From Halalkalicoccus tibetensis (GTDB lineage: Archaea; Halobacteriota; Halobacteria; Halobacteriales; Halalkalicoccaceae), in NCBI RefSeq assembly GCF_037996645.1, contig NZ_JBBMXV010000007.1:1-32971 (forward strand): a stretch of 32,971 bases of DNA. Direction: 5' to 3'. The position numbers and the translations under genes are program-made. A model generated the notes under the pieces. The model saw only the letters and a list, made by a program, of their open reading frames with translations. It ran no database searches and was not told the DNA's origin. Shown piece after piece: positions 1 to 31,415 of this stretch; within the stretch, counting starts at the first letter, position 1, and every line of letters starts with the position of its first letter.

Positions 1-1319
1 CGGACTGTCCCCAGCGCGACGAGCGCTTCGGCTGGACCGGCGACGTCCACCAGAACGCTCGTGCCGACTTCTACAACTTCGATGCACTTCGGTACCACGA
101 GAAGTGGATGCGCGACCACGACGACGATCAGCGCGAGGACGGCACCCAGAGCGACGCGATCCCTCATGCCGTCAGCGGGCCGAATCCGGACCCGAACTGG
201 GCGAAAACGCGGGTGATCGTTCCGTGGCATATGTATCTTCATACGGGTGACGAACGGTTTCTCGCGGACCGATACGAGGGAATGCGGGACTACGTCGACT
301 TCTGGCACGAGAGCACCGACGCACACATCGTCCCCGAGGAGATGGCCCACTACGGCGACTGGCTCTCCGTCGAGGACCAGCGCTCCGATCCGTCGTTGTT
401 CGGGACCTTCGCTCACTACGAGACGACCGACCGCTTCGCACGGATCGCAGCGGTGTTAGGCTACGACGACGATGCGACCGCGTATCGCGAGCGCGCCGAC
501 GCGATCGCCGAGGCGTTCCACGACGAGTTCTTCGATCCCGAGATGGACAGCTACGGAACCGGTACGCAGACGACGTACGCCCTTCCGCTCTCCGAGGGGA
601 TCGTCCCGGACGAGCACGAGTCGGCCGTCGTTGAGACGTTCGTCGAGAAAATCCGGAGCGAAGACGACGAGAAACTCCAGACCGGCTTCATCGGTACTCG
701 GCCGTTGATCTACACGCTAGTCGACTACGGCTACGCAGAACTAGCCTACTCCATCGTGAGCCAGCCCGAATATCCGGGCTGGGTGTACATGGTCGAGCAG
801 GGGGCGACGACGATGTGGGAACACTGGGACAGCGACGACCAAGTCGGCTCCGGAATGAATTCGCTAAACCATCGCCCCTGGACGCTGATTTCGGAGTGGT
901 TCTACCGCATCCTGGCAGGGATCGATGTCGGCGAACCCGGCTTCGAGCACGTCGAGATCACACCCACGGTCGTCGACGACCTCGAGTGGGCCGAGGCCGA
1001 GACGAAGACGGTCCGCGGCGTGGTCGCCTCGCGATGGGAACGGGTCGAGACGCCCGGCAACGGTCGTGAGAATGACGGGCTGACGCTCGAAGCGACAATC
1101 CCCGGTAATTCGTCGGCGACGGTCGAGATCCCGACCCTCGGCGGTAATGCCGTTCGCGTCCGCGAGGATGGAAAAACGATCTGGAACAACGGGAACCAGA
1201 CGCGACCAGCCCATCCCGGTATCGAGTCGATCTCCCGCGATGGCGAGAAGGTTGTCCTCGAAGTCGGTGCGGGCGAGTACGACTTCGAACTTGAGCAACT
1301 CGGTACCGTCGACCGATAA
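1..1319 (+). CDS. Alpha-L-rhamnosidase, GH78 (5' end outside window)
   Basis: This is the C-terminal part (about 438 codons, frame starting at base 3) of a glycoside hydrolase that releases terminal alpha-L-rhamnose. The first codons already carry the GH78 catalytic-loop signature DCPQRDERFGWTGD, which supplies the general acid and neighbouring acidic residues. The second conserved acid is the Glu of MWEHW at 819-821. The rest is the (alpha/alpha)6 barrel and a C-terminal beta domain ending in a tail (IPTLGG...GKTIWNNGN...PGI...GEYDFELEQLG) that recurs in the next two genes. It is closely related to the following gene: bases 1-83 are identical to 3467-3549. The N-terminal domains and any Tat signal lie outside the window. 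The product is probably exported, by analogy with its neighbours. The family call is firm; the exact substrate is unknown. Confidence 0.93.
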   Translation, partial: DCPQRDERFGWTGDVHQNARADFYNFDALRYHEKWMRDHDDDQREDGTQSDAIPHAVSGPNPDPNWAKTRVIVPWHMYLHTGDERFLADRYEGMRDYVDFWHESTDAHIVPEEMAHYGDWLSVEDQRSDPSLFGTFAHYETTDRFARIAAVLGYDDDATAYRERADAIAEAFHDEFFDPEMDSYGTGTQTTYALPLSEGIVPDEHESAVVETFVEKIRSEDDEKLQTGFIGTRPLIYTLVDYGYAELAYSIVSQPEYPGWVYMVEQGATTMWEHWDSDDQVGSGMNSLNHRPWTLISEWFYRILAGIDVGEPGFEHVEITPTVVDDLEWAEAETKTVRGVVASRWERVETPGNGRENDGLTLEATIPGNSSATVEIPTLGGNAVRVREDGKTIWNNGNQTRPAHPGIESISRDGEKVVLEVGAGEYDFELEQLGTVDR

Positions 1320-1390
1320 CCGGGCGACCGGTTCGGCTCGATCCACCCTTCTGCTCCCGATGCCTTTCGAACAAACTGCTAAACAATAAT

Positions 1391-1399
1391 TTTATATAA
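1391..1399 (+). promoter_or_regulatory. TATA box for the second rhamnosidase
   Basis: TTTATATAA lies 42-50 nt before the ATG at 1441, inside an AT-rich pocket of the 121-bp gap between two GC-rich genes. This fits a haloarchaeal TATA element giving a short 5' leader. It suggests that the second rhamnosidase has its own promoter and is not only read through from the first. Confidence 0.55.
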
Positions 1400-1440
1400 G
1401 TAGTTATCATACCGTGAACTACATCACGAAGTGTTAGTCA

Positions 1441-4400
1441 ATGACAGACACAGACAATTCCCAACGGAGTGAACAGCGATCACGAGCGGTTACCGATCGG
1501 AGTGCCCAGAAGCGAGCGCCCGGGCTCGACCGACGAGAGTACCTGAAGTACACTGGCACGATCGCCAGCGTGCCGATCGTCGCGAAGAGCGTTCGGGGAA
1601 GCGAAGGAGACGCTGTCGCCAGCGGACCGGACGAGGGCGCGGTGCCAGCCCCTATCGGCCTGCGCATGGAGTACGAACACGAACCGACGAACCTCCTCCC
1701 AGCGGCGGATCGACCGCCAAGACTGTCGTGGCGCTTACCGAGGCATCGGGATGTCGAGCAGACAGCCTACCGGATCCGCGTGGCAACCGGCGCCGATGCG
1801 CTGCCTGACGACGGAACGGTCTGGGACAGCGGGCGAGTCAACTCGAGTCGGTCGACAGCGATCGAATACGGCGGTGAGCAACTCGAGTCCGATACGACCT
1901 ACTACTGGACCGTTCGGGTTTGGGACAATAATCAGGGAAGTGACTGGAGCGACCCAACCCGCTTTACAACGGCGATTCCTGACGACGAGCACTGGGAGGG
2001 CGAGTGGATCGGCGCCGAGACACCGGAGCAGGACGTGCTAGAAAATGCCGACCAGAACTACCCTGCAGCGCTCCACGATGTCGACACGCTCGGGCAGTCG
2101 TTCAAGGTTGATTTCGAATTCGTGCGCGTCGGCGGGCAATTTCCCACGTGGAGTGCTCCCGACTCAGCGGTCACGGTGTCATTGTACGAGGGCGATCCTG
2201 AGGGTGAGTTACTCGCCCGCGATCGGATCTCGCCGGACGCTGCGGAGAACTTCTTGTGGTACTTTCTCGAACTCGACGAGCCCCTGCCAGCGGGGACGTA
2301 CTTCTTCGAGCAATCCGAACCTGAGGAGACGGTTGGCTGGCGAAGCCATACCGACAGTACTTTCAAGGACGGTCAGGCGTTCGAAGACGGCGCACCAGTT
2401 GACGGCGACCGCACACTGCGCGTCGAAGGTGAAAACGTGTCCGACCCCTCGCCACTGTTGCGGACCGAGTTCGGCCTCGAGAAGGAGGTCAAGTCGGCCC
2501 GAGCACACGTCGTCACGCTAGGATACGGCGAGCTGTACGCTAACGGCCAACGGATCGGTGACGAGCAGCTGAATCCCGCGTGGACGGAGTACGAGGAGAG
2601 GACGCTCTACACAACGTACGATCTCGAAGATGCTCTCGAAGCAGGCGAGAACGCGCTCGGGCTCTGGCTCGGTCGCGGCTGGTACGGACTTAATGCCGAC
2701 GATACGGCCCACTACGTCCAGTGGGATGCGATCGGCCCGCCGGCGGCGCTGGTACAGCTGAACGTCACGTACGCGGATGGGACGACGGCCACCGTTACGA
2801 CGGACACGTCGTGGACGACGACGCCGAGTCCGATCGTCGAGAATCATATCTACGACGGGGAGACGTATGACGCGCGCGAGGAACGATCCGGGTGGACCGA
2901 GCCCGGTTTCGTTGAGAAGTGGGATACCGTCAATCTGCTCGAACCGCCGAGCGATGACTTCGAACTTCGTCCGCAGCGTCTCCCGCCGACACGGGTAACC
3001 GAGACGTTCGGTCCCGAGGCGATCGTCGAGCGTGGAGACGCCTATCTCGTCGACTTCGGACAGAACCTGACGGGGTGGATCGAGCTAACCCTCCGTGAGA
3101 CAGACGCCGGTGACGAGATAACGCTCCAGCATGCCGAAGTCTTGCTCGACGAAGACGACGAGCTTACCCGGGATCTCGAGACGGGGACGCTCAATACGAA
3201 GGACCTTCGGGAAGCCGACGTGACGGACGTCTATACTGCGCGTGGCGACGGCGTCGAGACCTACGAGCCCCGATTCACGTATCACGGCTTCCGGTACGCG
3301 TCTGTCGAGGGCTACCCCGGCGAGCTAACGGCAGAGGACGTGACTGCAAAGGTGGTCCACACGGATTTCGGCGAGACCGGTTCGTTCGCGTGCTCGAACG
3401 AGGATCTGAACCAGGTCCAGCACAACGCCGTCTGGGGACTGCGCGGTAATGCGCATGGAATCCCGACGGACTGTCCCCAGCGCGACGAGCGCTTCGGCTG
3501 GACCGGCGACGTCCACCAGAACGCTCGTGCCGACTTCTACAACTTCGATCCCGTTCGATTCCACGAGAAGTGGATACAAGACCACGACGACAACCAGCGC
3601 TCGGAGGGTCACGTGACCAACACGATCCCGTTCGCCCGGCATCGAGAGGACGCCGAGGACGATCCGTTCTGGGAAGTTGCCGATCCCAACTGGGGGAAAA
3701 CGTACGTGATCGTCCCCTGGCACGGGTATCTCCATACTGGCGATAAGCGACTTCTCGAAGAGCACTATGGAGGGATGCGCAACTACATCGACTTCTGGCA
3801 TGATCAAGCCGAAGAACACGTAATCTCGGAGGAGATGACGAAGTTCGGCGACTGGCTCTCGTTCGAAGATCAGGAGTCGGATCCATCGTTGTTCAGTACC
3901 TTCGCTCACTACGAGACGACGGATCGCTTCGCCCGGATTGCGGACGCGCTCGGGTACGACGAGGACGCGCAAACCTACCGCGAGCGCGCCGACGCGATCG
4001 CCGAGGCGTTCAACAACGAGTTCTTCGACCGGGAGACGAGCAGTTACGGGACGGGAACGCAGGCGACCTTTGTCCTCCCGCTGTCGGAGGATATCGTCCC
4101 CGACCAGTATGAGGAAGACGTAGTCGAAACACTTGTCGAGAAAATCCGCAAGGAGGACGACGGGAAACTCCAGACCGGCTTTATCGCGACACGTCCGCTC
4201 ATCTACACGCTCGTCGAACACGGATACGGGGAACTCGCATACAACGTGATCAGTCAGCCGGAACAACCCGGCTGGGTGTACATGGTCCGCCAAGACGCAA
4301 CGACGATGTGGGAACACTGGGACAGCGACGACCAGGTTGGTTCGGGAATGAATTCAATGAACCACCGCCCGTGGACGCTGGTCTCTGAGTGGTTCTATCG

Positions 4401-12860: not shown

Positions 12861-13286
12861 ATGAGCACTGCCGCTGACTCGCTTGACTGGAAATCAATCG
12901 AGATCCTTCGCGCGCTTGCCGACGCCGAGACAGCACTCACCACAACGGAGGTCCGGGAGGCAACCGACCTTAGCGAGAATCGGATTATCCTTTATCGGAT
13001 TACTGAATATTTGGAGCCACAGGGACTCGTCTCAACCTATCAACCGGAGGCCACTGGGACGGTCGTTCCTGCTAAGGAGATCTCGCTCACAGAGTCCGGT
13101 CACGAGCTCACGACTGATCTCGAGACAACAGACGAGACTGGGCTGACGCTCTCCGATCTCCCAGAAAAAGTACACCACGCGCACTCTGTCCAACGAGATC
13201 CTTACGAATGTCGCCGACTAATGGTCCAAGGGTATTGTCAACGATATACTCGACGACGTATTCCGGTGTGTAGTAGGATCCAGTAG
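12861..13286 (+). pseudogene. Winged-helix DNA-binding protein, 3' end lost
   Basis: Residues 1 to about 105 form a MarR/PadR-like winged helix (DWKSIEILRALADAETALTT, then TEVREATDLSENRIILYRI and a wing), ending ELTTDLETTDETGLTLSDLPEKV. Beyond about base 13165 the frame runs antisense through the truncated restriction-modification gene and becomes Arg-rich nonsense (ECRRLMVQGYCQRYTRRRI). The original C-terminal part, probably a coiled coil in such haloarchaeal proteins, is therefore missing. A shortened protein could still be made. The start at 12861 is supported by the TATA box about 28 nt upstream and the tandem operator-like palindromes. It may have been autoregulatory (inference). Confidence 0.6.
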
Positions 13287-14724
13287 CTTTCCGCTCACCA
13301 GAGCCTGTTGTAAGATAGACCTCTCCTGTTTCCACGATGATCTCATCGCCTTCATCGGGAATTACGTACTCGCCATCATTGAGCGCTAACGGTTCATCGG
13401 CTACATTGAGTTGATACTCGAGTAGACCTTCGTAGATACTCCCAAGATGGCGCACGTCGAGCGATGAGTAATCGACGAATATCTTTCCACCCTCGCTCTG
13501 ACTACGAGTGAGCAATTCGATCACGCGGGCGAGATACGCATTACCGACCTCGTGGTTAGCGAGAAAGCGCGCTTCTTGGCTGTCGTTCGTATCCGGATCT
13601 GTACGGAATAGCCCACCGTTGTAGGCTGGAATATAGAGGTCTTCCTCTGGAATACCCCGGGACCGACTACCCTGATCGATAAGCTTGAACAGCTCCTCCA
13701 AGCGGGACCAGAGGTTATCCTGCCAATTTCGATACTTTGGATCCGCGCTATCGAGTTCCTCGGCGATTTCCTGTTTGAGCGAGTTCAGGCTGTATGACTG
13801 CTCGTAGATCTCGTTGTCCGTATTGAGCAGGTCACGTCCTTCACTCTCGGCATACAGGACGAAGATAAGCCGATACAGATAGATGAGCGAACTATCGTGT
13901 ATCTGATCGAGATCGTCTTCGTCGAGGTCATTCTCCGGATACTGGAGGAAGCCTTCGGAGAGGACCTTGATCGCCTCGTAGATGTTGTCCTGAAGGTCCT
14001 CCCCTAATTCCTGTGCGAATACGTTGCTCTCCCCGTAGACGTCGTCAAGGAAACTATCACCGCTTGCGTCCTCGAGAAACGCTTCGTGGCGGAAAAACAG
14101 GTAGAAATACTTGAAGTCCTCGAGATCGCCCTTTTCAAGGACGGTCGGAAGATCGATCTCATAATAGGAGTCCAATCGATGACTCGTAGGGCCGTAGTAT
14201 AGTCGCCATTTCTGTCCATCGGTGAGTACAGCCCACTGCGCGTCATCGACTTCCTGTAGGTAGACGTGAATCTGGTAGCTCGGGTTCTCGAAGTCACGTT
14301 CGTGCTCACCACTTCCACGGGTATCGAGCGGCCGCCCCCATCGTTTTGCGTCTGCAACGGCGACGGCGTTCTTGTAGAAGTCGCCACCCTCTTCACGACG
14401 TTCGAACGCGCCGCGGGCCGCTTCCTCCGATTCGAAGAAGCCGTAATCGGGTCGGCGCTGGGTTCGGCTGGTACTCTCTTCGACCTCGAATGGAATACCC
14501 AGCTTCCGGAACATCGGCCGGATGAACTTCTCTTCAAGCTGGGATTCGTTGCGTTTGGGTGCTGTACTCTTCTCGCGTTCCCAGAGCTCGTTGATCTCCT
14601 CGTACGCCTCGAGGAGCTCGTCTTCGCTGATCTCGTCCCATTCTTCGGTTTCGGGGAGGTGCTCATCAAGATAGTAGTTAGAAAAGAGGTCACGATTCGT
14701 TCGGTAGCTGAGTGCTGTCTGCAT
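13108..14724 (-). pseudogene. Type II restriction-modification protein, methyltransferase part lost
   Basis: The first ~520 residues are the N-terminal part of a fused restriction-methylation enzyme of the Eco57I/type IIG kind. A nuclease-like core is visible with RPDYGF followed by VAVADAKRW, a PD...(D/E)xK pattern. A helical region follows, then the typical lead-in to the methyltransferase (GSYYTPEYVVEYIVDNTLGP then LVGDIRKDLVGQSA). The frame then leaves homology near base 13180, before the SAM-binding motif, and ends in unrelated sequence antisense to the winged-helix gene. The methyltransferase and target-recognition domains are gone, so the product cannot modify DNA and probably does not cut specifically. 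The start ATG at 14724 lies 5 nt past the stop of the AbrB-like gene, so the two form an operon. Confidence 0.8.
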
Positions 14725-14729
14725 GGTAG

Positions 14730-14921
14730 TTAAACTGGAGTGACGATGAGAAACTGGTCGGAGTCTTTGCTGTTGATGAGTGCGTGTGCGATCTCTTTGG
14801 TCTCAGCGACATCGATCTCGATTGTGTCGCCAATTTCGATTCCGAGCTCGCTGAGTTCGGATCCGGAGAGATTAACGCGACCGGAGTGCCCGGTATTCTG
14901 GCTGACTTGCTTGCGGGCCAT
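14730..14921 (-). CDS. AbrB/SpoVT-like small DNA-binding protein
   Basis: This 63-residue protein starts MARKQVSQNTGHSGRVNLSG and has the swapped-hairpin pattern of AbrB/MazE/SpoVT domains (a GRVNLS strand, then LGIEIGDTIEIDV). An in-frame ATG eight codons earlier (14945) is possible. The inner ATG is preferred because homology-like sequence starts there and it fits the promoter better. It ends 5 nt before the restriction-modification gene, so it was probably a controller or antitoxin-like partner of that system. An 8-bp inverted repeat in its promoter suggests self-repression (inference). It now outlives a truncated partner. Confidence 0.7.
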   Translation of the reverse strand: MARKQVSQNTGHSGRVNLSGSELSELGIEIGDTIEIDVAETKEIAHALINSKDSDQFLIVTPV

Positions 14922-14952
14922 CAGTACTACTGGATATCCTTTCAACCGATGT

Positions 14953-14976
14953 ATATAGTCTTTTCTTAGACTATAT
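14953..14976 (-). promoter_or_regulatory. Inverted repeat in the promoter of the AbrB-like gene
   Basis: ATATAGTC at 14953-14960 and GACTATAT at 14969-14976 are perfect inverted 8-mers separated by 8 nt, 32-55 nt before the ATG at 14921. The arms contain the TATA-like sequence, so a protein bound here would block initiation. This fits autoregulation by a dimeric AbrB-type protein, though this is not shown. Confidence 0.45.
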
Positions 14977-15147
14977 TCAGAATATTAGATATTTGCCACT
15001 AACTGTGTATAGTCCCCTACTTCTAGAGGAGTGTCTCCCTTATGCAACATCTACGTCCAAGAGATGATTTGTTGAACAAGGTGGATAGCCAAGAGATCAT
15101 ACTCAGCACACCCAATTGAATCTACCAATATCACCGTACAACTCTGA

Positions 15148-16956
15148 CTAAGCAAACTCGCTGAATGTCTCTTTGATGTGCTCGCGAATAAGTTGTTCCC
15201 GCTTGTCAAGGAAGTCAAAGTAGTTCTCAATTATATGGAGATCCGGATCGCTTGGAATGAGGTGCCGGTCGTAGTATTCCTCGTTTCGACTAGAGAGCCA
15301 CTCTCCGAAGGATTTGTCCTGCTTACCCGCATTCTCTCCTTCCGTAATTAGCTGCAGATTCGAGATAGAATGACGGCTGTTCTCGTACTGTTTAGCCACA
15401 GAACGCTCAAAGCCATACTCTTCAACGAGCACATCAGCTTCAAGCTCCTTTTGCGGGAAAATATGGTCTCGATGGTAGTCCACCCCTTTCCGCACGGCAC
15501 TCGGGAAATAGATCAACGAAAGCAATAGGAACGACTTCTGGGACCGATAGGTCGTGTCCTCAAGCAACGAATCCACAACTTCTTCGCTGAACCCAACGAC
15601 TTTCCCTCGACCACGCATCCGGCGATGAATCTCCTCAAGCGGGAAGCTGCCATCCGATTCTTGAATAGCTATTCTGGCATCTGCCAGTACTTCGTCTGGG
15701 CGGGAATTGAACGTCCCATTGAGTAGCGCGGATGTTAGCCAGTAGTGGATACGGCGTCGTATCTCCATTCCGTGTTGCGAATCCCAGCTGAGGTCCGGGT
15801 TCTGATAATAGAGATAGTACGCAATCGGGATGAGTGCGTTATAGCTGGTCAGACTCCGTCTGCTAAGACCGAACTCCACAACAAGATCAAGAGCACTCTC
15901 AATTGCATCCTTGTATCTCCCCGATAGCCACGTATCCTTCATCACACCAAGATTGTGGTTAGTGAAGTTCGCGATCCGATACTGCGGATCAAGATCAGAG
16001 AGAACGAGAAGCGACTTTAGAACGAAGTCAATCCCAAATCGGAAGTTCTTGTCCTCGTGGCGTTCGTTCAGTGAATCCACGAAATCCGTGATCTGCTCGC
16101 GAGCATCTATCCCGTCTTCACCTTCCGTCCACCGTGCTGTCGCCATCGAAAGCAAGATTTCAGACTTGCTTAGCGGCGTTCCGCCATCGTTCGTCCGAAT
16201 GAAGATATCAAGAACCCGCTCGTGATTTTTCGTCGTCTCTTCGTGGTACTGGAGACTTGCACTATCGGTAATAGAGTTGTGCAGCGTGCGGAGGTTCTCA
16301 CTCGCAACCCACCATTTGTCTTTCCCGAAGTCTTTGAGGTCGAGTTCGTTGATGAGCTCCCGGACGTCTTCCTCAGGATCCAGCTCGAGGATATCACCAA
16401 CAGGGAACCAGTATGTATTGTCAGTTGGCTCCGGTTGTTGGCGCTTGAAATCGAACTCGTACTTCAACCCCATCTCGTCATCCAGTTCCTCATCAGGATC
16501 CAAAAACAGGTTAAAATAGAGCTGTTTGTTACTCCACGCGCTGGCATTCCGCCGTTGAGCGTATTTTTTCTTCTCAGCATATGTGCCTTTCAGTCCAATA
16601 TAGAATGCAGTGAGGCGTTGCTGACCGTCGAGAACTAGCTTCTGAGTCTCTGGAAGTTTTTCTGTCGTAGGAACCTTCGGGTTGTGGTAATCAACATGCT
16701 TGAAGTTCGGGTCGTCCGGGTAGACGCTATCGTTGATGTAATTTCTAATGAATTTGTACTTTATCTGATCGTCAGCTGTTTCGTCTTTAACCCGCCAAAG
16801 GAGGAACGATCCTATCGGATAGTCTCTGAGTACCGAATCAAACAGCTTGATAATCTGCTCTGTATCCCAGACGAATTCACGCTGGATCGCCGGAAGAAAG
16901 ATAGATTCGTTGAGATCATCAACAGCCTCACGAATACTCATCGACTTGTGAGCCAT
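15148..16956 (-). CDS. DUF262/HNH (GmrSD-like) protein, putative type IV restriction
   Basis: This 602-residue protein has both halves of a GmrSD-type enzyme. The N-terminal DUF262 domain shows QREFVW (25-30), DYPIGSFLLW (45-54), DGQQRLT (110-116) and RTNDGGTPLSKSEIL. DUF262 proteins are ParB-like and use NTP hydrolysis. The C-terminal DUF1524/HNH-type nuclease (about 490-560) shows HRDHIFPQ, followed by NSRHSISNLQLI and a GKQDKSFGEWL segment. Known GmrSD proteins cut glucosylated or otherwise modified phage DNA, so a defence role is likely. The gene stands alone with its own upstream gap and looks intact. The ATG at 16956 gives the expected N terminus. Confidence 0.85.
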   Translation of the reverse strand: MAHKSMSIREAVDDLNESIFLPAIQREFVWDTEQIIKLFDSVLRDYPIGSFLLWRVKDETADDQIKYKFIRNYINDSVYPDDPNFKHVDYHNPKVPTTEKLPETQKLVLDGQQRLTAFYIGLKGTYAEKKKYAQRRNASAWSNKQLYFNLFLDPDEELDDEMGLKYEFDFKRQQPEPTDNTYWFPVGDILELDPEEDVRELINELDLKDFGKDKWWVASENLRTLHNSITDSASLQYHEETTKNHERVLDIFIRTNDGGTPLSKSEILLSMATARWTEGEDGIDAREQITDFVDSLNERHEDKNFRFGIDFVLKSLLVLSDLDPQYRIANFTNHNLGVMKDTWLSGRYKDAIESALDLVVEFGLSRRSLTSYNALIPIAYYLYYQNPDLSWDSQHGMEIRRRIHYWLTSALLNGTFNSRPDEVLADARIAIQESDGSFPLEEIHRRMRGRGKVVGFSEEVVDSLLEDTTYRSQKSFLLLSLIYFPSAVRKGVDYHRDHIFPQKELEADVLVEEYGFERSVAKQYENSRHSISNLQLITEGENAGKQDKSFGEWLSSRNEEYYDRHLIPSDPDLHIIENYFDFLDKREQLIREHIKETFSEFA

Positions 16957-18511: not shown

Positions 18512-19198
18512 CTATTTCTGGGGCTCGTCGCTCACGCGAGTGAATTCCGCCGCCCCATATGTCGTCTTTTGGCCACCGTCCTGCTCCGAGGCACGGGCTG
18601 GCCCGGTGTAGTAATAGCCCACGAGTCGGTCGTCCGACTCCCGATACGTGAACCGTGTCGTCCCGTCGTATGGTCCTTCATCATCCGCCTGCTCGTCAAC
18701 GTCTGCACCCTCGTTCTCGAACAGGTAGGAGAGCTTTGGATGGAGTATCCCCTCGGTCTGGAAGTGGGCTCCTGTGCTGACCGATGGGGAGCGCTCTGTT
18801 TCGAAGTGGATGATGATTTTGCTCCACGTCTGCTTGATGTTCAGAGTAGCAATCATCGGCTGGTAGCCGCCATCGGCAAGGTAGTCGTCCGGGATTTCGC
18901 TCTCGTAGCTGGTCCTGATTTCGCCCTCCCAGTGACCGGTGAGATCGGGAACGGCGACAATGAAGTCTGGCATCCAGGGCTTCTTCCAGAGATGTTGGTC
19001 GAACACGCGACGGAACAGACCAAATACGACCCCAAAGGCCAAGCCAGGAACTACCAGCGGTGGAATCTCGAACGGTATTTGCTGGTAGAGCCACGGGAAG
19101 ACGTAAGCGTTCAGGGCGACCACGACGACGAACGCGACAACGCCCAGGATCGCCAGAAAAGTCGAGCGGAACTCGTTATCGCTGGAATAGACGTGCAT
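18512..19198 (-). CDS. cap15: CBASS effector Cap15-like (2TM plus beta-barrel)
   Basis: This 228-residue protein has the Cap15 (S-2TMbeta) layout. Two transmembrane helices (about 13-36 and 46-64) are followed by a beta-rich domain starting with the conserved LTGHWEG (86-92). Further typical strands are NIKQTWSKIIIHFETE.S, ILHPKLSYLFEN and RLVGYYYTGP. Known Cap15 effectors bind a cyclic dinucleotide in the barrel, oligomerise in the membrane and disrupt it, causing abortive infection. The start ATG (19198) lies within the end of the CD-NTase gene (23-bp overlap), so the pair is translationally coupled, which strongly supports a CBASS operon. No missing domain is seen. The match is from fold layout and motifs, not a search. 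Confidence 0.82.
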   Translation of the reverse strand: MHVYSSDNEFRSTFLAILGVVAFVVVVALNAYVFPWLYQQIPFEIPPLVVPGLAFGVVFGLFRRVFDQHLWKKPWMPDFIVAVPDLTGHWEGEIRTSYESEIPDDYLADGGYQPMIATLNIKQTWSKIIIHFETERSPSVSTGAHFQTEGILHPKLSYLFENEGADVDEQADDEGPYDGTTRFTYRESDDRLVGYYYTGPARASEQDGGQKTTYGAAEFTRVSDEPQK

Positions 19199-20087
19199 TC
19201 ATACTATTGGTGCTGGCGTTCTCCCAGTACGTTTCCAAGGCATCGACAAACAGTTTAGCGTGCCAGGTGTCCCATTTCGTGCGACCACTCCCGAAAAGGT
19301 CGGTCACGCCATTCTGACACTTCCACCCGGAGAAGTCTGTATCTTTCAGATAATTAACGATCTTGACGTATCGTTCCTGCAGGTCGTCTACGTACCGGCC
19401 CGGCGGGACGTTGTACAGGAGACACTCGATAAAGTAGGACGCCACGATGTCGTCTGTGATGTACCCATCTGCGACGATCTCCTTGCGGGCGTTTTTGAAC
19501 ATCCGCACGGTCTCTTTATACAAATCGTCGGTGTCGTCCTGTTTGTCCGACCCGTGGTCCCGATGGAGTGTCGGATAATTTATGACCGAAGAAATCGAGT
19601 CAGTTGGCCAGAAGATGATTCCGTCGTAACCTTGGGGATAGTTGTAGTAATGTTTGTGTTGGACACACACCAGCACGTCAGCGTCAAGTGGGAGGCCAGG
19701 TGCCGAAACCTCGATAGCGTTCCCGGACGGGTCAAACGTCCCCTCGGGGTACGTATCCTGCAGAACGCTTGATACATCGTCCCGAAATTCGTTGTAGTCA
19801 TAATCGTACTCTTTGACGTCCACGTCCTCCTGGTCTTCCGGATCAAGGTCGTGGAGGTTGAAGTACTGGAACTCGTCGAGCCGAACGATGATATCGACGT
19901 CGCTCGAATCGCGGATGATCGTGTTGTTCGCGTACGACCCTTGGAGGAAGTCGTGGAACTCGACGTTGTCGAGCGTGTCGCTGTCATTGAGTGCGTTCCG
20001 AATCTTCGTGTGGGTGTCCTGTGCTGACTGGAGAGCGGCTCGTTTCGGGTCAGTCCAGCTTTCGAGCGTGTCCTCATTGATCGCCAT
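19176..20087 (-). CDS. CBASS cyclic (di)nucleotide synthase, CD-NTase family
   Basis: This 303-residue protein is a cGAS/DncV-like nucleotidyltransferase that makes a cyclic oligonucleotide alarm signal during phage infection. The polymerase-beta-type active site is complete: G50-S51, the acidic pair D63 and D65 in SSDVDIIVRLD, and a third acid in LPLDADVLVC (D137 most likely). The C-terminal helical half (KETVRMFKNARKEI..., DIVASYFIECLLYNVPP) fits the SMODS/OAS-like core. It overlaps an upstream 111-aa gene by 14 bp and the Cap15-like effector gene by 23 bp. No ancillary Cap2/Cap3 or HORMA/TRIP13 gene is visible, so this looks like a minimal type I CBASS. The product nucleotide cannot be told from the sequence. 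Confidence 0.88.
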   Translation of the reverse strand: MAINEDTLESWTDPKRAALQSAQDTHTKIRNALNDSDTLDNVEFHDFLQGSYANNTIIRDSSDVDIIVRLDEFQYFNLHDLDPEDQEDVDVKEYDYDYNEFRDDVSSVLQDTYPEGTFDPSGNAIEVSAPGLPLDADVLVCVQHKHYYNYPQGYDGIIFWPTDSISSVINYPTLHRDHGSDKQDDTDDLYKETVRMFKNARKEIVADGYITDDIVASYFIECLLYNVPPGRYVDDLQERYVKIVNYLKDTDFSGWKCQNGVTDLFGSGRTKWDTWHAKLFVDALETYWENASTNSMNARLFQR

Positions 20088-20531: not shown

Positions 20532-21353
20532 ATGGATGTTGAGCAACGGTTGCACCTCATGCCGCTTGGCTACGAGTATGATCGTATCGTGGAGGCGGCT
20601 GATCAGCAACAAGCCGATTTTGTGATTCTCTTAGATTATCAGCAGACGGATGCCGCGAAAGAGGACGACGATATCGTTGCGCCGGAATATCACGATGATA
20701 TCCGGGAGGATCTGAAGGAGAGGGGAATCGGAGTCGCAACTGTCCCATGCGATCTATTCGATCTTTATGAGTCACTTGGCACAATCGCGGAAATTGCAAC
20801 AGCATTTGAGGATCATAACGTGCACGTGAACCTCGCATCTGGAAGCAAAGTTACTGCTATCGGTGGGATGATCGCCTGTATGGCAACCGGGGCACGTCCG
20901 TACTATGTTTCAGCAAAAGACTATGCTGGTGGTACTAAGGAGCCGGTAGCAGGAAACGTTGGAGAGGTCTATGAGTTATCGAAATATCCGATCCAACCCC
21001 CTGAACCTCAGCAAATTTCATGTCTTGAATACATTGTTGACGAAGGACCTGTTGCCAAAAAACGGCTGATTGAACACGGAGAGAACATAGAGCTCCCATT
21101 CGTAGCGTATTATGACGCATCAGGCGTGAAAGATGAGGTCCGTGGGAAGTATCGCCGACTCCAGTCTCAGATCATAAAGCCTCTATTGGAACAAGAATAC
21201 ATTACTATTCAAGAGCGAGGTCGCCATCAGTTCGTCAAAGCCACAGAAAGCGGCAAGAATACCGTTGAAGCGTTTCATTACCTAATAAACGGAGAGATTG
21301 AGGAAATAGGACTTGACCTCTCTGACTTCCCATTTCTATCGGAAGACGACTGA
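20532..21353 (+). CDS. CARF-like / winged-helix regulator (HFX_2341/DUF6293-like)
   Basis: This 273-residue protein has an N-terminal Rossmann-like CARF-type domain (about 1-150). It starts RLHLMPLGYEYDRIVEAA, with a DFVILLDY strand and the ligand-loop-like VHVNLASGSKVTAIGGMIAC. A C-terminal winged helix follows (about 160-265: QQISCLEYIVDEGPVAKKRL, then RRLQSQIIKPLLEQEYITIQ). CARF domains bind cyclic oligonucleotides, best known from type III CRISPR. Here no CRISPR genes are present; instead the gene is divergent from a CD-NTase/Cap15 operon, 122 bp away. A regulator that reads the CD-NTase product, or a related one, and switches the operon is a reasonable inference. The ATG at 20532 sits about 26 nt after a TATA-like box. 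Similar regulators are common in haloarchaea elsewhere, so linkage by chance is possible. Confidence 0.75.
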   Translation: MDVEQRLHLMPLGYEYDRIVEAADQQQADFVILLDYQQTDAAKEDDDIVAPEYHDDIREDLKERGIGVATVPCDLFDLYESLGTIAEIATAFEDHNVHVNLASGSKVTAIGGMIACMATGARPYYVSAKDYAGGTKEPVAGNVGEVYELSKYPIQPPEPQQISCLEYIVDEGPVAKKRLIEHGENIELPFVAYYDASGVKDEVRGKYRRLQSQIIKPLLEQEYITIQERGRHQFVKATESGKNTVEAFHYLINGEIEEIGLDLSDFPFLSEDD

Positions 21354-27506: not shown

Positions 27507-28487
27507 TCATGCAGTGTTATCCTCAGCACCGTATATCTCAAGGAGCTCTTGGTAACGGGCACGGATTGTCATTCTACTTATATCCGTTATCTCACTTACT
27601 GTTTGTTGGGTAGCTTTTTCATCGGTCAAGCGGCTCGCTGCATAAAGTGCGCCTGCTGCCAAACCAGCAGGTTTTCTGCCACTATGGGCGTTTTGATCCT
27701 TTGCAACAGTAAGGAGCTCTCGGGCTTTGCGGAGCACGTCATCGCTTACCTCAAGCGCCGATCCGAACTGAGATACATACTGGATCGGATCTGTCGGTTT
27801 GATTTCTAATCCAAGTTCACGGGAGAGATACCAATATGCGCGCTGAATAGGGAGTTGTTCAACTCGGCTGACAGTCGCACACTCTTCTAGCGTACGTGGT
27901 ACCTGATGCTGTCTGGCCGCTGCATACAGTGATGCTGTTGACATCGCTTCGATGGACCGGCCGGGAAGCAGATCGTTTTCGACGGCCCGACGATAGATGA
28001 TTGCTGCCGTTTCCCGAACTGGCTGTGGTAGTCCAAGCGCAGATGCCATTCTCCTAATCTCTCCGAAGGCCTGTTTGAGATTCCGTTCGCGGGCGTTCTT
28101 TGTTCGAAATCGTTCGTCCCATTGACGAAGCCGTTCTAATTTCGCTCGTTTTTCCTCTCCTACTATCTGTCCGGATGCATCTTTGTTTTGCCATCCAATT
28201 GTCGTACTAAGACCGTTGTCATGCATTAGAGGTGTTGTCGGCGTGCCAACCCGGCTCTTTGCATCTTGTTCCGTGGCATTGAACGCACGCCACTCGGGAC
28301 CGTGATCAATAGTATCTGCATTAAGGATAAGACCACATTCCTCACACGCTTTCTCTCCATGCTCATCATCAGACACGATTCGACCTCCACACTCCGGGCA
28401 TGATGCGATTGACTGAGACGCTGGCGCTTGTGTTTGCTCATCAGTCCGGTCGTCTTCGGTAGTGAGTTTCGTATGAGTCAGTTTCAT
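27507..28487 (-). CDS. tfb: Transcription initiation factor IIB (TFB)
   Basis: This 326-residue archaeal TFB recruits RNA polymerase to TBP-bound promoters. The zinc ribbon is complete (C30, C33, C48, C51 in CPECGG...CEECG). It is followed by the B-reader/linker region (DHGPEWRAFNATEQDAKSRV, GTPTTPL, GLSTTIGW) and two cyclin folds (about 130-220 and 225-322) ending with a helix-turn-helix for the BRE (QTVSEITDISRMTIRARYQE). The ATG at 28487 gives a normal N terminus. A GTG at 28571 would add 28 residues and sits where a TATA-like box (minus strand, about 28597-28612) would place a leaderless start, so the longer form cannot be excluded. It is divergent from a TBP gene, suggesting a dedicated accessory factor pair. 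GC and codon use are lower than in core genes. Confidence 0.93.
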   Translation of the reverse strand: MKLTHTKLTTEDDRTDEQTQAPASQSIASCPECGGRIVSDDEHGEKACEECGLILNADTIDHGPEWRAFNATEQDAKSRVGTPTTPLMHDNGLSTTIGWQNKDASGQIVGEEKRAKLERLRQWDERFRTKNARERNLKQAFGEIRRMASALGLPQPVRETAAIIYRRAVENDLLPGRSIEAMSTASLYAAARQHQVPRTLEECATVSRVEQLPIQRAYWYLSRELGLEIKPTDPIQYVSQFGSALEVSDDVLRKARELLTVAKDQNAHSGRKPAGLAAGALYAASRLTDEKATQQTVSEITDISRMTIRARYQELLEIYGAEDNTA

Positions 28488-28747
28488 TTTGACTTTTTGT
28501 ATCTTCGGTCGGTCCAGGCGATTGCTGACTGCTACGAGTGTTCGGATCAAGAGCGCAGGGCGGATTCCCACACGATGGGAATGCGGTGTTTCCAGCTCTA
28601 TTTAGATGCAGTGTAGAATGTCCTCTACGTTCTTTGCCCAAACAAAAATCAAGAAGAGATACTCAAGGAGGGCTTCTTATTATCTTTCAAAGCTACCAAT
28701 CCACACCAATAGGAACGTCTAAATAAGTCATCTTCAGAAAGTTCAGT

Positions 28748-28878
28748 TATGGTTGAGGACTTGCAGGGAAAGCAAGTCCCGGCAAAAGCCGACCAAGTTG
28801 GGTGACTCTTCGATCGTCTTAGGTAGGACGACCGTCACAGTCGTTCTCGCAGTTCATGATCTGACGACTCTCATGAGT
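28748..28878 (+). ncRNA. Candidate structured RNA or leader between TFB and TBP genes
   Basis: Several perfect hairpins occur in about 120 nt. A is GGACTTGC/GCAAGTCC (28757-28779, 7-nt loop). B is CGGC-AAAA-GCCG (28780-28791). C is GTGAC/GTCAC enclosing TCGTC/GACGA (28802-28838). D is AGTCGT/ACGACT enclosing CAG/CTG (28839-28869). E is ACTC-TCAT-GAGT (28867-28878), which competes with D. A TATA-like TCTAAATAAG at 28719-28728 would place a transcript start near 28750, just before hairpin A. It could be a stand-alone small RNA or the 5' leader of the TBP gene (ATG at 28959). I recognise no known RNA family. The hairpins were found by eye; no folding energy was calculated. Confidence 0.5.
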
Positions 28879-28958
28879 ATAGAGTGAAAATCCATATATT
28901 ATTATCAGCTATCAGATTCCTAAAAGGACTTTGTATCTCGGTGTTGTAGCTACTCACG

Positions 28959-29513
28959 ATGGCTCCTTCAACGTCAGTGGAGGTCCAGAATATCGTCGCT
29001 TCAACAAAGATCGCTCAAGAGGTTGATCTCGATGCTCTCTGCCAAGATCTCGACAATGCACAACACAGCACAGGAGCAGTTACCTGTCTAACCTACCGAT
29101 TACAAGAGCCAAAAATAGCAATCAACATTCATCAATCTGGAAAACTCATCATCACGGGTGCAAAATCAGTTCAAGACGTTTATACAGGGTTCTATTGCCT
29201 GTTTGATGAACTGCGAGAGCTACATATTGATCTATTGGATCCACCGCACATATCTATTGACAATGTAGTAACTAGTGCTGATCTTGGTCAGTCAGTCGAC
29301 CTTGCTACGGTTGCTATTAAATTAGGAGTCGAGCAGATAGAGTATGAACCAGAGCAATTTCCAGCACTTATCTATTGGCTCGAAGAGCCAAATGCAGTTG
29401 TAATGCTATTTGCAAGTGGGAAGATGGTTATTACTGGCTGTACAACAAAAAATACGGCAATAAATGCATCGGAAATGGCATCATCTCAAATTCTTAACGA
29501 TAATCCTTTGTGA
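28959..29513 (+). CDS. tbp: TATA-box binding protein (TBP), divergent first lobe
   Basis: This 184-residue protein is a two-lobe TBP, close to the usual length. Lobe 1 reads VQNIVASTKIAQEVDLDALC and YRLQEPK, then SGKLIITGAKSVQDV. Lobe 2 reads IDNVVTSADLGQSVDLATVA, then GVEQIEYEPEQFPALIYWLE and LFASGKMVITG. In normal TBPs each lobe inserts two Phe into DNA. Lobe 2 keeps them (F134, F151). In lobe 1 they are replaced: the FPG position is VTC (V41) and the IF-x-SGK position is IHQSGK (H58). The last helix is also shortened and Ser/Asn-rich. It is divergent from a TFB gene, with a structured region between. It is probably an accessory TBP with altered promoter choice or weaker DNA bending (inference). 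It lies on low-GC accessory DNA. Confidence 0.92.
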   Translation: MAPSTSVEVQNIVASTKIAQEVDLDALCQDLDNAQHSTGAVTCLTYRLQEPKIAINIHQSGKLIITGAKSVQDVYTGFYCLFDELRELHIDLLDPPHISIDNVVTSADLGQSVDLATVAIKLGVEQIEYEPEQFPALIYWLEEPNAVVMLFASGKMVITGCTTKNTAINASEMASSQILNDNPL

Positions 29514-30029
29514 AGATGCGTATTTTCTGCCAGCATGATTATGGCCAATTTCTTGCCCATATCTATAGTTGGAATAGAGAACAGATGCATGGCTTCGACG
29601 AAGGTTTTCAAGCGATCCTCTTGTGAGTATCGGCAGAGTCGGTCCGCATCTAACACGAAGACAACGACCGACGAACGCCATCAAAGCAGTCCAGCCCCAT
29701 ACCGTCGGTCCTATTAGTCCCCTCACTGCACGGAACAAGCTTACCACTGATTATCAACGAAGTCCGCGAGAGCCACTACGTACAACATCAAATACAAAGA
29801 ATACAATCAAAATGGCCGACGCCACAAACGAGATGATCGACCGGGGGTTCGCATTGTCGAATACAACACCGTGGCGGTGCTCAAGTTTCGAGGCTACCCG
29901 TCGTCATATGTTCAATCTCCAATGATAGGAATTCGCTGCTGTGATATTCACTTGCGAGAGGTCGACGTTACGTCCGAGAGCACTCCTAAATAGAGTAGCA
30001 CAAAACTACATCCCGGGAGCAGTCTGCAG
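29514..30029. other. 516-bp gap with at most one gene fragment
   Basis: I see no complete gene. Frames 29623-29925 (+) and 29481-29747 (-) lack motifs and overlap. The only protein-like stretch is listed separately at 29751-29993. A TATA-like CTAAATAG near 29986-29993 may serve the PP-loop gene downstream. Confidence 0.5.
29751..29993 (+). pseudogene. Possible protein fragment without a start codon
   Basis: An 80-codon open frame between stops contains YNIKYKEYNQNGRRHKRDDR then PGVRIVEYNTVAVLKFRGYP and ends HLREVDVTSESTPK. The middle part has a natural-looking beta-strand pattern, but there is no in-frame start near its beginning. It may be the tail of a deleted gene. Family unknown; chance is not excluded. 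Confidence 0.25.
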
Positions 30030-31415
30030 GTGGCTCGTCGTCGATCCTCATTCCAGAAATTGATAACAGCGGGAGGTCAAGCGACGCGGATGAGGCCGCG
30101 AATCACTGTAGACGAAATCTCCGTTCACGACCGGACCGAGGTCCAATATAGCGTGTCGTATTCACGGCGTCTCCAGCGGTTTCTGCGGGACATCGATCCG
30201 TATATACGGTACTCGGAGGACGTCTCCGACGTTCCCGAAAGCATTCTCGCGGTTCCCCTTTTGGCAACGTTATCTCCCGTCGCCTGGATCAGAGGCGCCG
30301 ATATTTATATCGATGAGATAGACGAGAGTTTCCGTCGGGCGCTTCCTAGACTCTACGATGGGTACGCGCAATTGTATCCAAATGCACCATTCGAAGCGAA
30401 AAGTTCCCTCCATTACAAGGACCTCGTCGATAACGGCTCACCTAACCCCGATTCGGAAGAGAGTCGTTCAGGAGTCCTCTTTACAGGTGGTGTCGACTCG
30501 ACAACGACGTATCTTCGCCATCGCGACCAGCAGCCACACCTCATCACGGTCCGAAAGGAAACGGAAACTCGAGAGAACGCATGGAAGCAACAGCGGCGGA
30601 TGATCGACGCTTTCGCGGCCGAAAATGAGCTCACAGCTCATGCGATCGAGACGAACATCAAATCGATAGTCAAGAAGTTCATGGTGAACCTCTATCATCG
30701 CCACCAGCTCAACGAGTCCTGGGATCGGGCGATGTTCTTCGGAATCGGATATCCCGGCTTTACCGCTCCTCTCGCCTACAAACATGGCCTTACAAACATC
30801 TACCAGTCAGCGGATTATCTCCCTCACAAGCGATATCCAAAATCGACACAGCCACTGTTGGTTGACAATCTCCGATGGGGGGAAACGAGAGTTAAATCGG
30901 ATGCAGGCGAACTAACGCGTCAAAACAAAATCGAACTCCTCGGTACTCACTTCGCGGACAAAGAGACGAATTGGGAGGTCAGTAGCTGTGACTACGGCGG
31001 CGATGCGTCGTTATCATGCAATCACTGTGAGACCTGCTTTCATACGATCACAGGCTTCATCGTCGCGAACTATGATCCAGCGGCGTTCGGATTCGAGGTC
31101 GATACAGGAACGTTCGAAGAGATCAAATCCCACCTGAATGATCGAGAGTTCGATTCGGACAGCGGGAAACTGCGCTTCTGGCTCGAGCTCCAAGAGCGGG
31201 CCGACCCCTCACAGATCAATCTCCCCTACGAGGGAGTAACAGATTTCGTCGCCTGGCTCGCCGATGCAACGATCGCCGAAGAGTGGAGCCGACCGTTACC
31301 AGTGCCCAAACCGGAGTATGAGAGCAGTATGAAACGACGGCTCTGCATAGCACTCCCGTATCCTCTCGATGCATGGCTTATTCGGTGGTATTTCGACAAA
31401 TCGGACAGACGATAA
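30030..31415 (+). CDS. QueC-like PP-loop ATPase, unknown role
   Basis: This protein has up to 461 residues. The N-terminal ~145 residues are an unfamiliar domain. The PP-loop ATP-binding motif follows (GVLFTGGVDSTTTY, TGGVDS at 152-157), then a Rossmann-like core (HLITVRKETETRE; FGIGYPGFTAPLAYKHGLTN). A four-cysteine zinc site C320-x9-C330-x2-C333-x2-C336 matches the QueC pattern. QueC makes 7-cyano-7-deazaguanine; QueC-like proteins also occur in anti-phage systems such as Qat. No other Qat or queuosine gene is near, so it stands alone. The start is uncertain: GTG at 30030, or ATG at 30090, which follows a GGAGGT sequence 12 nt upstream and would give 441 residues. An activating or adenylating role is likely; the substrate is unknown. 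Confidence 0.75.
   Translation: MARRRSSFQKLITAGGQATRMRPRITVDEISVHDRTEVQYSVSYSRRLQRFLRDIDPYIRYSEDVSDVPESILAVPLLATLSPVAWIRGADIYIDEIDESFRRALPRLYDGYAQLYPNAPFEAKSSLHYKDLVDNGSPNPDSEESRSGVLFTGGVDSTTTYLRHRDQQPHLITVRKETETRENAWKQQRRMIDAFAAENELTAHAIETNIKSIVKKFMVNLYHRHQLNESWDRAMFFGIGYPGFTAPLAYKHGLTNIYQSADYLPHKRYPKSTQPLLVDNLRWGETRVKSDAGELTRQNKIELLGTHFADKETNWEVSSCDYGGDASLSCNHCETCFHTITGFIVANYDPAAFGFEVDTGTFEEIKSHLNDREFDSDSGKLRFWLELQERADPSQINLPYEGVTDFVAWLADATIAEEWSRPLPVPKPEYESSMKRRLCIALPYPLDAWLIRWYFDKSDRR

Follow-up and report, generated by a model that had tools for sequence, protein, structure and literature searches.

A TBP paralog of Halalkalicoccus tibetensis without intercalating phenylalanines in its first lobe

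The stretch of Halalkalicoccus tibetensis DNA analysed here (32,971 nucleotides, the window) encodes a TBP paralog whose first lobe carries neither of the two intercalating phenylalanines, while its second lobe keeps both. The protein adds an independent and unusually thorough example to a kind of one-lobe loss that is already known. It is not the first example: a 2014 paper had described haloarchaeal TBPs that have lost the N-terminal Phe pair (PMC4230888), which leaves the novelty implied by an earlier note on this DNA unsupported.

The gene and its altered first lobe

The open reading frame of the window TBP is intact (Table 1) and matches PF00352 in two stretches (E 1.1e-45; 153.9 bits, cut-off 22.9). 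When aligned with the TbpE of the same organism and with other haloarchaeal and methanogen TBPs, the two Phe columns of lobe 1 are occupied by V41 and H58, with no gap between them, and in pairwise comparisons the lobe aligns ungapped with the TBPs of solved structure from M. jannaschii, Pyrococcus and Sulfolobus. The corresponding columns of lobe 2 contain F134 and F151. Both parts of the original observation, a first lobe deprived of its intercalating Phe and a second lobe that retains them, are thus borne out. A shifted Phe or a misalignment is ruled out by the ungapped lobe-1 alignments and by a search of the lobe for Phe near the two sites, which found none; the sole Phe residues of lobe 1, F78 and F82, are located in helix H71-87 of the predicted model, and the observation stands. 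Two pairs of intercalating Phe are a trait of the TBP family, of which this protein has the lobe-2 pair, with V41/H58 in lobe 1. Because the trait varies within the family, the missing pair limits the functional claim and not the homology claim.

Val41 and His58 are equivalent to yeast F99 and F116, and the DNA-contact residues of the yeast protein are N69, V71, F99, L114, F116, V122 and T124, together with their lobe-2 equivalents. Judged against this set, lobe 1 retains N11, V13 and T66, with a conservative I64, and has lost both Phe and the Leu, N56 replacing the latter two residues ahead of the second Phe site. The basic residues R47, K52, K62 and K69 are also retained in lobe 1, and its stirrup reads QHSTGAVTC, compared with DYDPEQFPG in canonical TBP. 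Lobe 2 conserves N102, V104, F134, P135, F151, V157 and T159, that is, all of its DNA-contact positions except for a conservative Leu to Met change at 149, and the TFB-facing stirrup glutamates E130 and E132 are present as well. With both lobe-1 wedges missing and lobe 2 intact, the asymmetric TBP suggested in the earlier note is the natural reading of this sequence.

An AlphaFold2 model of the protein without DNA, obtained with an input of 41 window and locus sequences, has a mean pLDDT of 92.4, with both lobes confident and, throughout lobe 1, values of 89-98 in blocks from residue 11. The model displays the saddle fold and, compared with solved TBPs, alone and in complexes, gives TM values of 0.80-0.91 for most of them. 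On the strength of this confident model and of its match to solved TBPs, the fold of the window TBP is predicted to be intact.

Table 1. Features of the window TBP gene and of its surroundings (window positions)
Feature	Position	Strand	Basis
TBP paralog of 184 aa with two TBP repeats and no intercalating Phe in lobe 1	28959..29513	+	ORF with ATG start, PF00352
Lobe 1 (aa 6-95)	28974..29243	+	alignment, dN/dS against ortholog
Val41 codon; Ile in the H. paucihalophilus ortholog	29079..29081	+	alignment
His58 codon; His also in the H. paucihalophilus ortholog	29130..29132	+	alignment
Lobe 2 (aa 98-172), with F134, P135, F151 and EYEPEQF stirrup	29250..29474	+	PF00352 stretch 98-172, conserved columns, dN/dS
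Upstream region conserved with ortholog, contiguous with TBP gene	28872..28958	+	blastn 28872-29514, 87.6% to L267; alignment
Divergent TFB, Zn ribbon and two TFIIB repeats, likely start Met codon 28487	27507..28571	-	domain matches

Relatives and origin of the loss

A survey set of 218 distinct haloarchaeal TBPs, plus a few methanogen sequences, was gathered from about 390 searched genomes of the order; genomes rich in TBPs were favoured on purpose, and the frequencies in the set are thus not population estimates. Four Phe are present in 123 of these 218 proteins. Of the 143 clusters formed at 90% identity, 77 have changes in lobe 1 only, five in lobe 2 only and four in both lobes. Most lobe-1 changes are from Phe to Tyr, and across haloarchaeal paralogs the lobe-2 stirrup is retained while lobe 1 drifts. 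The earlier note had suggested looking for a clade sharing V41/H58: a shared site pattern does exist, as VH or IH, and among the 218 distinct TBPs it is confined to the window TBP and its ortholog. Since these residues are common to both proteins, they cannot be put down to faulty assembly or to misalignment by chance. Among the 218 TBPs, the absence of an aromatic residue at both lobe-1 sites, with lobe 2 intact, is shared by the window pair with no others than three proteins on long branches, which have HP, DP and SP at these sites and group together in the tree.

Other unusual TBPs were also identified in the survey. Mirror cases, with altered Phe in lobe 2 (FFSP, FFSA), are rarer and occur at loci L109, L201, L209, L212 and L215, two of them being altered in both lobes (AFSY). 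TBPs of the DP/SP type (L218:4479-5342, minus strand, and L134:627-1472, plus strand) have an N-terminal extension of about 100 aa with the look, by eye, of a winged helix and with no Pfam match.

In a tree of 102 rows, the window pair falls with the four-Phe TBPs, apart from TbpC (SH-aLRT 96); support was 98 once the longest rows had been removed, and 100/100 in a careful tree of 56 rows. Long-branch attraction is ruled out, as the placement of the pair did not change without the long rows. The tree requires two origins for the loss of lobe-1 aromatics with an intact lobe 2 and, from the branching of the window pair with four-Phe TBPs, the loss of lobe-1 Phe in this lineage is separate from that of the TbpC clade. 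The tree, together with NCBIfam PRK00394.1-2 (cut-off 181 bits), also rules out that the window TBP is a TbpC: it scores 173.9, below the cut-off, and the TbpC of strain NRC-1 scores 254.9, above it.

TbpC of Halobacterium is nevertheless the nearest analogue. Becker et al. 2014 (PMC4230888) describe its N-terminal Phe pair as lost and its C-terminal pair as kept, a combination shared by 18 of 21 tbpC-like proteins, and add that several TBPs outside the tbpC clade also have no N-terminal pair. These latter proteins have in common with the window TBP an independent loss of that pair, and the window lineage may be among them. The same authors left open whether such TBPs are nonfunctional or specialised. 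The tbpC gene could be deleted without a phenotype (PMC2121645); it has no known phenotype and its transcript was undetected (PMC4230888, PMC2121645).

The window TBP and the TbpC-like clade are both non-TbpE haloarchaeal paralogs with both lobe-1 Phe replaced, and with the lobe-2 pair and the EPEQF stirrup kept. The trait is thus the same, but the residues differ: the lobe-1 sites are Tyr,Tyr in TbpC of NRC-1 (L270) and Val,His in the window TBP. The two proteins are also apart in the tree (100/100), and many TbpC-like genes, including tbpC of NRC-1, follow an SNF2 helicase, whereas the window TBP gene stands alone. With TbpE the window TBP shares fold, length and lobe 2, and its pair branches with four-Phe TBPs; however, its identity to TbpE is only about 48%, the lobe-1 wedges are missing, and the organism's own TbpE is a separate gene on contig C3. 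The protein thus does not combine four Phe with a high identity to TbpE.

A large BrxHII/DrmD/HmaA-like helicase is encoded directly upstream, on the same strand, of 19 of the 92 TBPs without the full four Phe, as against none of 111 four-Phe TBPs; Tyr,Tyr is found in lobe 1 of 17 of these 19. The helicase matches are mostly strong, with three weak ones, of which two are AFSY loci and the third is a short fragment. The helicase has about 985 aa and is SNF2/BrxHII/DrmD-like. One helicase-TBP locus is L270 (NRC-1 pNRC200, 59-3540); further ones include L204, L205, L207, L208, L209, L212, L236-L238, L240 and L241. A large Eco57I/PglX-type DNA methyltransferase recurs near the helicase-linked TBPs. 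The recurrence of helicase and methyltransferase suggests that these loci are possibly haloarchaeal defence-type operons with a dedicated TBP. The eukaryotic SNF2 enzyme Mot1 acts on TBP. TBPs have also been described in other conflict systems, TOTE and TALON (PMC12458937). The window TBP gene is outside any helicase-type operon.

Conservation between two species and the surrounding locus

The sole ortholog found, from H. paucihalophilus, is 89% identical to the window TBP and has I41 and H58; none was present in five other genomes of the genus that were searched. A scan of viral contigs for carriage of the window TBP detected no relative. The genome of H. tibetensis additionally encodes a canonical four-Phe TbpE-like TBP (L001, contig C3) and, on contig C6, a TbpC-like TBP whose lobe-1 sites are Tyr,Tyr. 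Because of this separate canonical TBP, the window protein would be free to specialise.

Compared with the ortholog, dN/dS is 0.13-0.19 for lobe 1, 0.15-0.17 for lobe 2 and about 0.10-0.12 for the altered stirrup, and the deficit of nonsynonymous changes gives P values of 3e-5, 7e-4 and 0.006, respectively, in a simple binomial test, all from a single sequence pair with about 20 changes per lobe. On this one pair, both lobes are under purifying selection and the altered lobe 1 is maintained rather than drifting, which argues against decay. That the gene might be a pseudogene, the other doubt attached to the original observation, is disfavoured by intact open reading frames in both species and by dN/dS values well below 1 in both lobes.

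Conservation with H. paucihalophilus covers the TBP gene and about 90 bp ahead of it; apart from these, only short patches at a greater distance upstream are conserved. The conserved upstream region is probably the promoter of the window TBP gene; it includes AT-rich, TATA-like stretches at 28892-28905 and TTCCTAAAAGGA (28917-28928). A scan for sigma-70-type promoters, with models that do not cover archaeal promoters, produced chance-level matches only.

Elsewhere in the window, a CBASS-type pair is located at 18512-20087 on the minus strand, with a CD-NTase (19176-20087) and a Cap15 membrane effector (18512-19198). A defence island (13108-16956, minus strand, and 20532-21353, plus strand) contains a type IIG/DrmMI-like N-terminal fragment, a GmrSD/HEC-05 protein and a CARF-type HFX_2341-like protein. 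A protein of 461 aa that contains an SGGVDS-like motif (FTGGVDSTTTYLR), encoded at 30030-31415 on the plus strand, had no match in Pfam, PADLOC or NCBIfam.

A possible mode of action and its alternatives

Of the two ends of the TATA box, the C-terminal Phe kink the 5' one and the N-terminal Phe the 3' one (PMC3142196). Both sets of Phe are required for efficient bending by the M. jannaschii TBP, and the TBP of Sulfolobus does not bend DNA unless TFB is present (PMC4041446). The reading tentatively preferred for the window protein, with a little less than an even chance of being correct, is that of a functional, lopsided accessory TBP, in which lobe 2 would kink DNA and hold TFB, and lobe 1 would dock without wedging. 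The lobe-2 Phe pair would kink the TATA element at its upstream end (5', BRE-side) and the lobe-2 stirrup would bind TFB, while lobe 1, with its fold, its minor-groove Asn/Val/Thr contacts and its basic backbone contacts kept, would leave the downstream end unwedged. By itself the protein should bind weakly or cause little bending. Its activity would depend on TFB, because the single-kink complex would be completed or stabilised once TFB is bound to lobe 2, and probably also on particular promoters or conditions. It is in these terms that we infer the DNA geometry, the TFB dependence and the accessory role of the window TBP. That natural evolution has here yielded, and stably preserved, a single-kink TBP that produces a one-sided bend and is competent for transcription only with TFB, at private promoters, is conceivable, if on the unlikely side.

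The main rivals of a TFB-dependent accessory TBP are a competitor that sequesters TFB and a factor of altered specificity. Acting as a competitor or decoy, which appears unlikely, the protein would bind TFB through lobe 2, perhaps along with the upstream TATA half, without forming a productive bent complex, and would damp transcription from TbpE promoters. Such a role would be in agreement with an intact lobe 2 and TFB-facing stirrup beside lost lobe-1 wedges, and with a gene that is conserved and not decaying, but the DNA-contacting Asn/Val/Thr and basic residues kept by lobe 1 would be superfluous in a pure TFB decoy. Slightly less likely again is that V41, N56 and H58 read a non-TATA 3' half-site and so define a small private regulon; the changed residues face the DNA and are conserved in the two species as V/I, N and H. 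A dinoflagellate TBP-like factor, likewise a TBP homologue without intercalating Phe, although eukaryotic and with all four lost, prefers TTTT (PMC5029490), and ORF24 of KSHV has a polar DNA face (PMC12529657); both precedents are in line with altered specificity.

It is improbable that the gene is an ageing paralog on its way to becoming a pseudogene, its Phe lost through relaxed constraint. The stem branch of the window pair is long (0.9), the C-terminal tail, the sole loose region of the protein, differs from the ortholog in 6 of 12 residues, and the tbpC knock-out had no phenotype (PMC2121645), all of which would be in keeping with such ageing. TBP genes like this one do decay, because H. 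paucihalophilus carries a second copy (L087/L263, contig 10) of which only lobe 2 is left, in fusion with an unrelated stretch upstream; this copy stays similar to the window for about 90 bp beyond the stop codon, and no lobe-1 relic was found upstream of it. The H. tibetensis genome has its own lobe-2-only relic, of 77 aa and of a third TBP type (C7:54264-54458; L264 ~14265), whose lobe 2 resembles the NYFF-type TBP of L222. Against ageing of the window gene stand the open reading frames intact in both species, the low dN/dS of both lobes and the upstream region conserved with the ortholog.

The special partner that the earlier note had seen in the divergent TFB receives no support, and a dedicated pair is very improbable: the two genes are adjacent and divergent, but no TFB occurs in 19.9 kb around the H. 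paucihalophilus ortholog, a genome that has the TBP without a window-type TFB (best match, 59% identity); relatives of the window TFB (66-68%) are present in two congeners without a window-type TBP (G014 and G040); an 87% paralog is located on contig C6 of the same genome; and, among loci with long flanks, a TFB is near just 4 of 114 TBP loci. The ortholog without an adjoining TFB, the TFB relatives without the TBP and the 87% paralog rule out the pair as a conserved unit.

One-lobe losses separate two jobs of TBP, the kinking of DNA and the holding of TFB. To the 2014 report the survey adds that the lobe-1 'losses' of TbpC-like proteins are mostly changes from Phe to Tyr, and that the TFB-facing stirrup of lobe 2 is the part that haloarchaea keep. 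The window lineage, which has lost its lobe-1 aromatics and yet appears to be under purifying selection, provides a natural variant for testing the need for two kinks. If it is indeed a single-kink TBP, archaeal initiation at a set of private promoters would not strictly need the two-kink bend of TBP-bound DNA.
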